Assembly: GCF_026004055.1 (NCBI RefSeq)
Contig: NZ_BPIJ01000001.1
Location: 434,001-498,000 of the forward strand
Direction of reading: 5' to 3'
DNA from: Meiothermus sp.
Lineage (GTDB): Bacteria > Deinococcota > Deinococci > Deinococcales > Thermaceae
DNA length: 64,000 bases
Part shown: piece by piece, positions 43,830 through 48,050 of the stretch
How positions within the stretch are numbered: the first letter of the stretch is position 1
Layout: every line of letters starts with the position of its first letter
Made by a program: the position numbers and the translations under genes
The notes under the pieces: generated by a model
Database searches by the model: none
What the model was told of the DNA's origin: nothing
What the model saw: the letters and a program-made list of their open reading frames with translations, nothing else

Positions 43830-45593
43830 ATGAGCCAAGCCACCGCCGAACTTCCTACCTGGGATCTGGATTCTTTGTTTCCGGGATTTGAGTCGAGGCC
43901 ATTCTTGGACACCTGGAACCAGGTAGTGAATCAACTGCGGGATTTGCATGATTTCCTGGAGGCCCATCGTATCGGCCAGGAGGGGGCTTCTACCGACCCA
44001 CAGACTTTTCGTGCAGTACTGGACAGGCTCAATGCCTTTGGCGAGACCCTGGGGCCGCTCTTTGCCTACGTGCTGATGCGGGTGGATGCCGATAGCACCG
44101 ACGCCGCCGCCCAGGCCAAGCTCTCGGAGCTCGAGCGGGTGCAGCTCGAGTACCAAAAACTGCGCCCCAGGCTCCAGCGTTGGCTGGCTATGCTCGATGC
44201 CGATGCGGTGCAGGCAGGCGAATACCGGATTCTGCTCGAGGAGGCCAGAGTCCAGGCCCAGCACATGATGTCCGAGCCCGAGGAAGTGCTGGCCGCCGAG
44301 CTGTCGCTCTCAGGTGGACGGGCCTGGGTCAAGCTCCATGGCAACCTGACCAGCCAGATTACGGCGGTGGTGCTGGGGGAGGAGCTACCTATGAGCGCCG
44401 TGCGTAACCTGGCCATGCACCCCCAAGAAGCGGTGCGTAAAGCCGCCTACGAGGCTGAGCTCCAAGCCTGGAAAGCCCACGAAGTGGCCCTGGCGGCAGC
44501 CCTCAACGGCTACAAGGGCGAGGTCTCGACCCTGAACCGCAAGCGCGGCTGGCCCGACGACCTAGCCCCGGCCCTGTTCGAGAACCGTATTGGGCGTAAG
44601 ACCCAGGAGGCTATGCAGCGGGTGATGGTGGATAGCCTTCCGCACTGGCGGCGCTATTTTGCCCTCAAGGCTCGGGCTTTGAGCAAGAACCGACTCGACT
44701 GGTGGGATCTGTTTGCCCCGATGTCGTCCGGCTCCCTGCCCAAGAAATGGGGCTGGGAGGAGGGTCGGCGGTTTATTGTCGAGCACCTGTCGGGCTTCTC
44801 TAAGGCTGCTGCGGCGCTGGCTGAGCGGGCTTTTGCCGAGCGCTGGCTGGATGCCTCTCCGCGCAAGGGCAAAGTGGGGGGTGCGTACTGCATGCCGGTA
44901 GGGCAGGGATGCTCGCGCATTCTGCTAAACCACGAAGATAGCTTTGAGTCCCTCTCGACCCTGGCCCACGAGCTAGGCCACGCCTACCACAACCTCTGCT
45001 TGCGGGAGGTGCCCTACCTGCTGCGCCAGGAGCCCATGACCCTGGCCGAGACCGCTTCCATCATGAACGAGACCGTGGTGGGAGAGGCGGCCCTGCGGGT
45101 GCTACCCCCTGCCGAGCAACTTGGGGTGCTCGAGGGCGGCCTGCAAAGCGCAGCCCAGGTAGTAGTAGACATCCATTCCCGCTTTTTGTTCGAGCAGGCG
45201 GTGTTTGCCAGGCGCCGCGAGCGCGAGCTTTCGGCCCAGGAGTTCTGCCAGCAGATGTTGGAGGCCCAGCAAGAGACCTACGGCGAGGCCCTGGCTACTT
45301 ATCACCCCTACATGTGGGCGGTGAAGGGGCACTACTACGGCTCCAACTTCTATAACTTCCCCTATGCTTTTGGGCTTTTGTTTGGTCTGGCGCTGTACCA
45401 GCGATACCTGACCGAGGGCCCCGATTTTGTAGCGCGCTACGAGGAACTGTTGGCCTCGGTGGGCAAATACTCCGCCGAGCAACTGGCCGCTCGTTTTGGC
45501 TTCGATCTGGAGACGGAGGCTTTCTGGCAGGGGGGCATGGCGGTTTTGATTCAACGCATCGAGCGCTTTGAGCAGTTGCTGCTCAGTAAGTAG
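43830..45593 (+). CDS. pepF: Oligoendopeptidase F (M3 family)
   Basis: Zinc endopeptidase acting on oligopeptides in the cytoplasm; 587 residues. The metal site is His380-Glu-x-x-His384 in TLAHELGHAYH, with the third ligand region ETASIMNETVVGEA about 25 residues later. TATACT lies 7 nt before the ATG, so the mRNA is probably leaderless. The length is normal for the family. Confidence 0.92.
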   Translation: MSQATAELPTWDLDSLFPGFESRPFLDTWNQVVNQLRDLHDFLEAHRIGQEGASTDPQTFRAVLDRLNAFGETLGPLFAYVLMRVDADSTDAAAQAKLSELERVQLEYQKLRPRLQRWLAMLDADAVQAGEYRILLEEARVQAQHMMSEPEEVLAAELSLSGGRAWVKLHGNLTSQITAVVLGEELPMSAVRNLAMHPQEAVRKAAYEAELQAWKAHEVALAAALNGYKGEVSTLNRKRGWPDDLAPALFENRIGRKTQEAMQRVMVDSLPHWRRYFALKARALSKNRLDWWDLFAPMSSGSLPKKWGWEEGRRFIVEHLSGFSKAAAALAERAFAERWLDASPRKGKVGGAYCMPVGQGCSRILLNHEDSFESLSTLAHELGHAYHNLCLREVPYLLRQEPMTLAETASIMNETVVGEAALRVLPPAEQLGVLEGGLQSAAQVVVDIHSRFLFEQAVFARRRERELSAQEFCQQMLEAQQETYGEALATYHPYMWAVKGHYYGSNFYNFPYAFGLLFGLALYQRYLTEGPDFVARYEELLASVGKYSAEQLAARFGFDLETEAFWQGGMAVLIQRIERFEQLLLSK

Positions 45594-45625
45594 AAAAAAA
45601 GAACTCACTAAATATAAAACAAATA

Positions 45626-45655
45626 TTGACAAAATAGTAATCTCTGGTTTATATT
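45626..45655 (+). promoter_or_regulatory. Strong promoter of the SHOCT-like gene cluster
   Basis: TTGACA (45626-45631) and TATATT (45650-45655) are 18 bp apart in a strikingly AT-rich 70-bp stretch within a GC-rich genome. The predicted start is near 45662, followed by GGGAGGA and the ATG at 45675. Confidence 0.8.
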
Positions 45656-45674
45656 TACAACCAGGGAGGAAGCC

Positions 45675-45872
45675 ATGTTCGGACACTTCAACCAGGCAGA
45701 ATTGACCGTTGTAATCAGGGACAAAATCCATGTCTATCGTCAGGAAGCCGACCGGGCCCGCCAACTGCCCAAGCACTCTTTGCGCTACCGCATAGCCCAG
45801 CAGCTTCGGGTCTGGGCTGAGGCTTTGGAGCCGACCCGGGGCTTGGTCTCCCAGCAGTTGGGCAGGGCCTAA
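45675..45872 (+). CDS. Small hypothetical protein, first gene of the SHOCT-like cluster
   Basis: A 65-residue basic helical protein (MFGHFNQAELTVVIRDKIHVY..., then LRYRIAQQLRVWAEALEP), not recognised. It has no membrane helix. A strong promoter and GGGAGGA precede it, and the next gene follows 62 nt later, so it leads the operon. It could be a small regulator or binding partner; this is speculation. Confidence 0.7.
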   Translation: MFGHFNQAELTVVIRDKIHVYRQEADRARQLPKHSLRYRIAQQLRVWAEALEPTRGLVSQQLGRA

Positions 45873-45934
45873 AGCCACCCTTGAAGATGACGACTACCCG
45901 ACCAGGACAGGTAAAGACCAGAATGGAGGTTCCG

Positions 45935-46681
45935 ATGTCTGAACAAGAGCGCATCCAGGCCTTGCTGCTAGCAGGCAAAATCACCCAGCAGGAAGCCGAG
46001 TTACTGCTTTCGGCCCTCGAGGAAGGCGACACCGCGGCCCAACAGGCCCAGGCCACCCTGGGCGAGCAGTATGCCGCCCCGGCTACCGGATGGCAGCCGG
46101 AAGGGTTGCGCTGGGTGCGGGTTAGGCTCACCGCGGGTCAGCTCGAGGCCAGGCTCGACCCCAGCCTGCAGATGCCGGTGGTAGAGGGCCCGGCGGAGGT
46201 GCGCCCGGTGGGGGCCGACCTGGAAGTGTGGCCCGAAATGGCAGGGGGCAGCTTTTTTGGGTTGCTGGGCCGGATGGGTTCGTTGGAGCTGCGTCTTCCG
46301 TCCGGTTGGGGTCTGGAGATAGACGGCAAAGCTGCTCAGGTAGAAGCTGAGAGCATCGCGTTCCTCAAAGGCCGGGTGGCAGCGGGCAACGTGGAGCTTG
46401 TGGCCGTGGAAGGGCTCGACCTCGAGGTCACGGCGGGCAACATCGACGGCTCGCTTTTGCTGCGAGAAGGCCAGCACCGCCTGCGGGCCTCGATGGGCAA
46501 TGTCGAGCTGGAAATGTTACCTGGCAGCAGCGTCCAACTGCACCCCAGCGTGAGCCTGGGCAACCAGGAAATCCGGGGTTTTGACCGCTCGGTGAACGGG
46601 GCCCACCGGCAGCTTGGGGAGGGCCGGGCCAGCCTCGAGGTCTCGGTGCGCATGGGCAACTTGGAAGTGAAGGCGAGGTAG
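45935..46681 (+). CDS. SHOCT-like plus DUF4097-type beta protein (YvlB/LiaX-like)
   Basis: A 248-residue protein. The N-terminal 28 residues (SEQERIQALLLAGKITQQEA ELLLSAL) form the short helical module also found in two other proteins of this cluster. The rest is a beta-rich repeat region (GNVELVAVEGLDLEVTAGNIDG, SMGNVELEMLPGSS, RMGNLEVKAR), as in DUF4097 bacterial adhesin-type domains. This plan is that of YvlB and LiaX of Firmicutes, linked to cell-envelope stress. There is no signal peptide. GGAGG before ATG 45935 sets the start. Confidence 0.72.
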   Translation: MSEQERIQALLLAGKITQQEAELLLSALEEGDTAAQQAQATLGEQYAAPATGWQPEGLRWVRVRLTAGQLEARLDPSLQMPVVEGPAEVRPVGADLEVWPEMAGGSFFGLLGRMGSLELRLPSGWGLEIDGKAAQVEAESIAFLKGRVAAGNVELVAVEGLDLEVTAGNIDGSLLLREGQHRLRASMGNVELEMLPGSSVQLHPSVSLGNQEIRGFDRSVNGAHRQLGEGRASLEVSVRMGNLEVKAR

Positions 46682-46684
46682 GCC

Positions 46685-46807
46685 ATGAACCCGGCCAAAA
46701 ATCTGGCAAAACCCGTTCCCGTTCGAGCCACAAAACGGCGTAAAAGCAAGTGCACAAGGTCTGTACCGCGCCCGCTGCCCACCGTTTTTTTCTTTGCGAT
46801 TCTCTGA
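46685..46807 (+). CDS. Possible 40-residue basic peptide
   Basis: A short frame begins 3 nt after the preceding stop, with GAGG 6 nt before the ATG, and ends 11 nt before the next ATG. The product is strongly basic (residues 15-28, RATKRRKSK) with a hydrophobic end (TVFFFAIL). Fit between two genes of the operon favours translation, but no homology is known. Confidence 0.35.
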   Translation: MNPAKNLAKPVPVRATKRRKSKCTRSVPRPLPTVFFFAIL

Positions 46808-46818
46808 GGAGCCCCTTT

Positions 46819-47259
46819 ATGGAAGACAAAAAGCGCATTATGGATATGGTTCGGGAAGGCAAAATTACCGCTGAGGAGGCCATCCGCTTGTTGGAAGCGA
46901 TGGACTCTGGGCGACCCCAGACGGCCCCCGGCGCAGGCTACGCCTACGCAGTGGCCACCACCCCACCCCCCCCAAAGGGCATCGCCAAGATGATCCGCAT
47001 TGTGGTGGATGGGGAGGATGTCAAGGTCAAGGTCAACGTGCCTGCGGCCCTGGCCAAGTTTGCTTCCAACTTTATCCCCCCCGAGGCCAAACAGCAGTTG
47101 AGCGCCCAGGGGATCGATGTAGCAGGTATCCTGGACATGCTCAAGGGCGAGTTACCCGAAGGCCGCTTGGTGGATGTAGAAATCAGTGACGTGGCCAAGG
47201 TGAGCGAAGGCGAGACCAAGATGACCGGCCCCATGCGGGTCATGATCGAGGTGGTCTGA
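46819..47259 (+). CDS. SHOCT-like domain protein
   Basis: A 146-residue protein. Residues 1-30 (EDKKRIMDMVREGKITAEEA IRLLEAM) repeat the module of the preceding gene. The C-terminal part (MIRIVVDGEDVKVKVNVP ... LPEGRLVDVEI) is a beta domain of the kind found after this module in YvlB-like proteins. GAGGAG precedes ATG 46819. No signal peptide or membrane helix is present. Confidence 0.72.
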   Translation: MEDKKRIMDMVREGKITAEEAIRLLEAMDSGRPQTAPGAGYAYAVATTPPPPKGIAKMIRIVVDGEDVKVKVNVPAALAKFASNFIPPEAKQQLSAQGIDVAGILDMLKGELPEGRLVDVEISDVAKVSEGETKMTGPMRVMIEVV

Positions 47260-47291
47260 GGGGGGCTTTGGCCCCGGACGGAGGGAATGGG

Positions 47292-47633
47292 ATGGTGGCG
47301 GTGTCGAAAGCGCTTCCAGTGCACTGGTTCTCAAAGCTACACCGGGTTCGGCCTCGGTTTGTGTATTTGTGGGTGCGGGTACAGGATGTGCCGCTGCCCA
47401 TCTTTTTGTTTGCACCCCTGGTAGTGCTCGAGTTTTTCCTGTTGGTCGGCATCTGGATTACCCGGAGACAAGGCTTTGAGCCCCAGCTTGCCTTTGCCTT
47501 GCAGGCCCTGCGGGGCCAGACCTGGGAACTGCGGCAGATGCCGCCCTTCGCCCTGGTGGAGGTAAAGATAAAGCCCAAAGCCTTTTATCCCAAGGCCCCC
47601 ACGCAGGTGTATGTCAAGATCGGGTTGTGGTGA
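47292..47633 (+). CDS. Small membrane protein of the SHOCT-like cluster
   Basis: A 113-residue protein with one clear membrane helix (PIFLFAPLVVLEFFLLVGIWI, about residues 40-62) between a basic N-terminus and a cytoplasmic-type C-terminus. GGAGGG lies before ATG 47292. It is the only membrane member of the cluster and may tether the soluble SHOCT-like proteins; this is inferred from context. Confidence 0.7.
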   Translation: MVAVSKALPVHWFSKLHRVRPRFVYLWVRVQDVPLPIFLFAPLVVLEFFLLVGIWITRRQGFEPQLAFALQALRGQTWELRQMPPFALVEVKIKPKAFYPKAPTQVYVKIGLW

Positions 47634-47657
47634 AGTATGACCCGAGTTGGAGCTCCT

Positions 47658-48050
47658 ATGAACGTCTTTCCCATGCCCACCGAGTGCCCGGTACAGGGTT
47701 GTAACGGGCGCCTGCACGTGACCGGACTGGTCTGTTCTGCTTGTCGCACCGAGGTTAAAGGCGAGTTTCAGCCCAACGAGTTTGCTCTCTTGCCCCCCGA
47801 GCATCTGGAGTTTTTGCGCCTGTACATCAAGGTGCGGGGCAACCTGAAGGAAGTGGAGCGGATTCTGGGGCTCTCTTACCCCACCGTTCGGGCCCGCTTT
47901 GAAAGCCTCTTACGGGTGCTCGGCTACGAGGAGGAGGTAGACCAAAGCCCCAGTACAGAGGAAAAGGAAGCCATCCTCTCGGCTCTGGAAAAAGGCCAGT
48001 TGAGCGCTGCCGAGGCTGCCGAACGCCTGCGCGCCCTCAAGAAACGCTAA
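47658..48050 (+). CDS. DUF2089 zinc-ribbon/HTH regulator
   Basis: A 130-residue DUF2089 protein. The N-terminus is a zinc ribbon (CPVQGCNGRL ... VCSACRTEV). The centre is a sigma-like helix-turn-helix (NLKEVERILGLSYPTVRARFE). The C-terminus (EKEAILSALEKGQLSAAEAAERLRAL) is again the short helical module, so three proteins of the operon share it. It probably regulates transcription of this cluster, with the module serving for mutual binding. GGAG precedes ATG 47658. Confidence 0.82.
   Translation: MNVFPMPTECPVQGCNGRLHVTGLVCSACRTEVKGEFQPNEFALLPPEHLEFLRLYIKVRGNLKEVERILGLSYPTVRARFESLLRVLGYEEEVDQSPSTEEKEAILSALEKGQLSAAEAAERLRALKKR

Follow-up and report, generated by a model that had tools for sequence, protein, structure and literature searches.

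A DUF2089 operon of a Meiothermus-like bacterium with three SHOCT-like modules and a 22-bp repeat array at its promoter: a possible self-controlling envelope-stress cassette

Organization of the operon

We analysed a 64,000-nucleotide stretch of DNA, hereafter called the window, in whose numbering all positions are given. It belongs to a Meiothermus-like genome of 3.18 Mb, and the closest named relatives of its DUF2089 protein are those of Meiothermus species. Five genes, A65-B-C-D-E, all on the + strand, form one operon of 2.4 kb that lies 3' of an M3 peptidase gene, with an enoyl-CoA hydratase gene converging on it. The genes, and the SHOCT-like modules that three of them encode, are as follows.

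45675..45872, + strand: A65, a basic, probably helical leader protein of 65 aa, kept in relatives
45935..46681, + strand: B, a SHOCT-like module followed by a toastrack (DUF4097/LiaG-type) beta domain
45938..46024, + strand: SHOCT-like module of B (genome profile search, relatives, hhalign)
46819..47259, + strand: C, a SHOCT-like module followed by an alpha/beta domain, fold without assignment
46822..46914, + strand: SHOCT-like module of C (modelled helices at 2-13 and 18-29)
47292..47633, + strand: D, basic, with a single hydrophobic (membrane) segment at about residues 37-55 (hydropathy)
47658..48050, + strand: E, the DUF2089 regulator, with a zinc ribbon, a NarL/sigma-4-like HTH and a C-terminal SHOCT-like module
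47955..48047, + strand: SHOCT-like module of E (modelled helices at 98-111 and 117-129)

The first-pass annotation of this DNA had placed the three modules and their ORFs correctly, N-terminal in B and C and C-terminal in E. It had also counted one or two small proteins in the operon, and here only one stands: the 65-aa protein encoded at 45675 is conserved, carries the motif LP..xLRxRIAxxLRxWAExLEP and is kept in much of the order, and Pfam and NCBIfam searches with it returned no match. A 40-aa ORF at 46685 was not gene-like, having no family match and C following directly after B in most relatives, and it was dropped as a gene.

The regulator E scored over the cut-offs for the HTH family PF09862 (76.7 bits) and the zinc ribbon PF22747 (44.5 bits), and its modelled HTH resembles NarL/LiaR-type response regulators and sigma region 4 at Z 6-8, values common among helical domains of this kind. 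The Pfam toastrack family PF13349 (DUF4097) was not matched by B itself and was matched by 29 of 45 B relatives; together with a weak match of B to LiaG (2e-4) and of the B-family profile to the toastrack structure 4qrk (0.0033), the aligned family identifies B as a toastrack protein, in which hydropathy revealed no membrane segment. C matched the LiaX model NF038025 with 21.1 bits over residues 1-29 only, below the full-length cut-off of 350 bits. Its structure model was moderately confident (pTM 0.45), and for its alpha/beta domain the best PDB matches had Z <= 4.3 (OSR1/SPAK CCT domain) and Foldseek returned no match at E <= 0.001. The kinship with LiaX and YvlB that the first-pass annotation had proposed is supported. 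In many Deinococcota the D gene again separates C from E. By eye, D and the C-terminal domain of C have strand-like motifs in the same order, and D may be a divergent paralogue of that domain lacking the module; the two were collinear over 78 columns in hhalign but at 5% probability, and homology is not claimed.

A SHOCT-like module shared by three proteins

The modules were compared with PF22746 (SHOCT-like_DUF2089-C), which has a curated Pfam cut-off of 27 bits. C exceeded it clearly (46 bits, 3e-12), E reached 24.1 bits (2.6e-5) in the protein search and 27.5 bits in the genome search, and B matched weakly at 13.5-16.5 bits, under the cut-off. Among relatives, PF22746 was found at E <= 0.01 in 35/45 B, 55/55 C and 53/65 E proteins, and the module alignments of B, C and E matched each other with a probability of 95.6-98.1% (hhalign). 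Once relatives are added, sequence comparison thus makes it clear that the three modules are homologous. They are also the only credible PF22746 matches in the whole-genome search, in which the fourth best scored 12.7 bits. The structure models of C and E have a two-helix hairpin at the module sites. SHOCT proper (PF09851) likewise comprises two short amphipathic helices, spans about 30 aa and has a conserved G and a conserved E; however, none of the operon proteins matched it at E <= 1 in Pfam, PF22746 being the only one of the two families that they match.

Conservation of the operon in the order

A DUF2089 protein over the cut-off was present in 103 of 111 genomes of the order. The first-pass annotation had taken separation of these genes in relatives as grounds for refutation, and what was found is that the operon, including A65 and the membrane protein, is retained across the order. 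In five genomes without a DUF2089 protein over the cut-off (G046, G053, G104, G106 and G110), PF22746 was over its cut-off in 0/5.

A repeat array over a near-consensus promoter

Upstream of A65 lies a sigma-70-type promoter together with direct repeats of AAATRTAAA, spaced with a 22-bp period and overlapping the -35 hexamer TTGACA. The elements are listed below.

45588..45596, + strand: putative operator box 1, AAGTAGAAA, preceding box 2 by 22 bp
45610..45618, + strand: putative operator box 2, AAATATAAA, kept in several of the order's families
45626..45655, + strand: sigma-70-type promoter, TTGACA, 18 nt, TATATT
45632..45640, + strand: putative operator box 3, AAATAGTAA here and AAATATAAA in most relatives
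45648..45656, - strand: inverted box copy over the -10, AAATATAAA on the - strand (sequence; relatives)

The near-consensus promoter of the first-pass annotation was recovered (TTGACA-18 nt-TATATT, 11/12 to consensus), and this score, together with the conserved repeat array, which lies where an autoregulatory operator would be expected, speaks for the strong controlled expression that had been suggested from it. Exact TTGACA occurred upstream of the operon in 42/70 Deinococcota loci, where about 2 are expected from shuffled sequence, and in 14/24 loci of other phyla, where about 1 is expected. Box 3 begins directly 3' of the -35 hexamer, and in box 1 TAGAAAA is retained within the genus. Ten promoters of the genus, compared with themselves, gave an identity peak at lag 22 only (0.51 vs 0.34 expected), and among 45 other Deinococcota loci repeats were again most numerous at lag 22, judged against shuffles that keep base content only.

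The two-box pattern occurs a single time in its own genome by whole-genome search, and no further sites of a possible regulon rose above the level of the reversed-pattern control. Order-wide, 35 of the 46 two-box matches lay within 5 kb upstream of a DUF2089 gene on the same strand, which accounts for 33 of the 39 genomes having any match, while the reversed control pattern gave very few matches. One of the matches outside this set, in G041, is directly before an A65 gene. G024 has a second, distant copy (C1:528248; L187 ~1500), with a similar one in its relative G023 (C1:753675); the gene after the G024 copy may encode another small leader protein, with a longer ORF behind it, and may be a second target. 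Beyond Deinococcota most loci have no clear 22-bp array, with the exceptions of a WOR-3 locus (L162), where AAATTATAAA is repeated at 22 bp before the DUF2089 gene, and a Clostridia locus, where GTTAAA is repeated at 22 bp.

A second inverted repeat at 45643-45668, CTGGTT...AACCAG, surrounds the -10 and overlaps the start of the ribosome-binding site. Its sequence in other Meiothermus is CCTTGGTT...AACCAAGG, both arms being altered in concert.

Relation to described systems

The operon belongs to a described kind, because Ravi et al. 2024 (PMC11237479) reported such a four-gene DUF2089/toastrack context, for which they proposed a PSP-like role, and recognised a zinc ribbon, an HTH and a SHOCT-like part in DUF2089. 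The same paper already carries the idea that SHOCT-like modules and a DUF2089 regulator come together in complexes beneath the membrane, assembled by the modules (PMC11237479). In that context, as in the present operon, a DUF2089 gene with all three parts adjoins genes for toastrack proteins; the present operon differs in having DUF2089 last, an added 65-aa leader and a different membrane protein. The main text of that paper, as searched, reports neither the promoter array nor Deinococcota, and the open-access literature that we searched yielded no earlier report of the array, A65 or the charge pattern described below, and no experimental study of DUF2089 or of the SHOCT-like module as a regulator. 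What is new here is therefore the repeated control site, the conservation of A65 and the charge pattern, the type of gene cluster being already known.

Several envelope-stress systems are comparable in part. LiaX acts in envelope stress (PMC10269926), and the start of its model matches the N-terminal module of C; however, LiaX of enterococci has a C-terminal toastrack (PF13349) domain, whereas in the present operon module and toastrack are divided between two proteins, and DUF2089 is the regulator in place of the LiaFSR kinase system, which is absent. YvlB, part of a two-hybrid network with PspA/LiaH (PMC9239133), belongs to YvlABCD of Bacillus subtilis, which similarly joins a SHOCT-like and toastrack protein with membrane partners, yet is under sigma-W control, whereas the present operon has its own DUF2089 regulator and neither PspC nor a holin-like protein. 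Toastrack/PspC genes of Listeria are induced by bacteriocin (PMC12791056). The feedback of PspA on PspF would work in a similar way provided that an effector holds its own regulator in check, but the proteins are others and the regulator here is not an AAA+ activator.

Proposed control of the operon and its alternatives

We infer that the DUF2089 protein is the binder of the array and through it autoregulates the operon. Repression would be likelier than activation, given a near-consensus promoter that the boxes overlap. On the reading that we prefer, to which we give a probability of roughly 0.45, the operon is a self-controlling, PSP/Lia-like envelope-stress cassette in which DUF2089 represses through the array and the hairpins of B and C modulate it. 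The regulator, sitting on the tandem 22-bp-spaced AAATRTAAA boxes over -35 and -10, would keep the operon low; B and C would be cytoplasmic proteins, probably collected at the membrane by the aid of D and perhaps of A65; pairing of B and C with E via the common hairpin would change the regulator's hold on its operator, and the feedback loop would thereby be closed, reporting the state of the membrane without a kinase. Repression by DUF2089, pairing of the modules and membrane stress as the signal are each steps that we infer.

Pairing of the hairpins is the step on which the evidence divides. In Deinococcota, helix 2 of the module has a mean charge of +1.7 in E, -4.0 in B and -2.8 in C, and these patterns fit E-B and E-C pairing, so that holding or releasing the regulator in this way is plausible, though the basic helix of E might serve DNA binding only. 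It is possible, if somewhat doubtful, that DUF2089 autoregulates via the 22-bp array while the modules stay unpaired and act as independent tethers, to the membrane, to another protein, for example PspA, or to nucleic acid. Homo-oligomerisation of a related SHOCT domain was not supported in a published test (PMC3581485), and the alternative, membrane anchoring, has been proposed by Ravi et al. (PMC11237479). Co-evolution of the modules beyond phylogeny was not significant in a comparison of low power (partial r 0.07 and 0.11 for the distances of E vs B and C; p 0.23 and 0.09). A third protein is also at hand, as one PspA gene lies elsewhere in the same genome, outside the operon, in which a Pfam search found no gene matching PspA. 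Speaking against independent tethers, the modules occur in a single operon only, where DUF2089 is missing they are likewise missing or score under the cut-off, and the charge difference between E and B/C has the sense expected for pairing.

The array itself bears on two further readings. That DUF2089 is a class II activator, binding the upstream boxes and contacting RNA polymerase near -35 so that stress boosts transcription, would suit the location of boxes 1 and 2 upstream of the -35 and the likeness of the modelled HTH to the activating response regulators VraR, LiaR and DosR; we consider it unlikely, since the promoter already scores 11/12 and box copies also lie over the -35 and -10, where they would block the polymerase. 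More improbable still is that another factor binds the array, or that it is a polymerase-related element, with DUF2089 acting elsewhere: several DUF2089 loci, chiefly in GC-rich genomes, have no evident array, but across the order it is near-exclusive to the DUF2089 operon, and it recurs beside DUF2089 in WOR-3.

DUF2089 loci in other lineages

In the loci that were fetched, DUF2089 adjoins same-strand toastrack and C-type genes bearing the module, and such neighbours occur in Deinococcota, Bacillota, Chloroflexi, WOR-3, Coatesbacteria, Planctomycetes and others. Module matches on the opposite strand were not found in the fetched DUF2089 loci, and natural two-module proteins were not evident among them. 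In L175 and L176 the toastrack protein carries the hairpin C-terminally, so the hairpin is portable. Control of this kind might extend to DUF2089 proteins in general, which would then be kinase-free autoregulators whose occupancy of a tandem array with 22-bp period is set when their C-terminal hairpin pairs with the complementary hairpins of the toastrack and LiaX-like proteins of their operon; we hold this generalization to be doubtful. If true, one 30-residue module would connect membrane sensing to transcription in many bacterial phyla. Both DUF2089 regulators and SHOCT-like modules occur widely. The present operon offers five small, thermostable proteins in compact form and a precise predicted operator, so that the role of the module and signalling from toastrack protein to DNA become testable.

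Some loci have unusual features. Two to three tandem toastrack genes, each with its own module or near one, are present in L045, L054, L055 and L056. In L062, L064, L067, L071 and L074 the zinc-ribbon cysteines of DUF2089 are gone and the HTH is almost unchanged, so that zinc is dispensable in these lineages. In L177, a MAG contig labelled Klebsiella pneumoniae, DUF2089 is beside a SHOCT-like gene, and the label looks like mis-binning.
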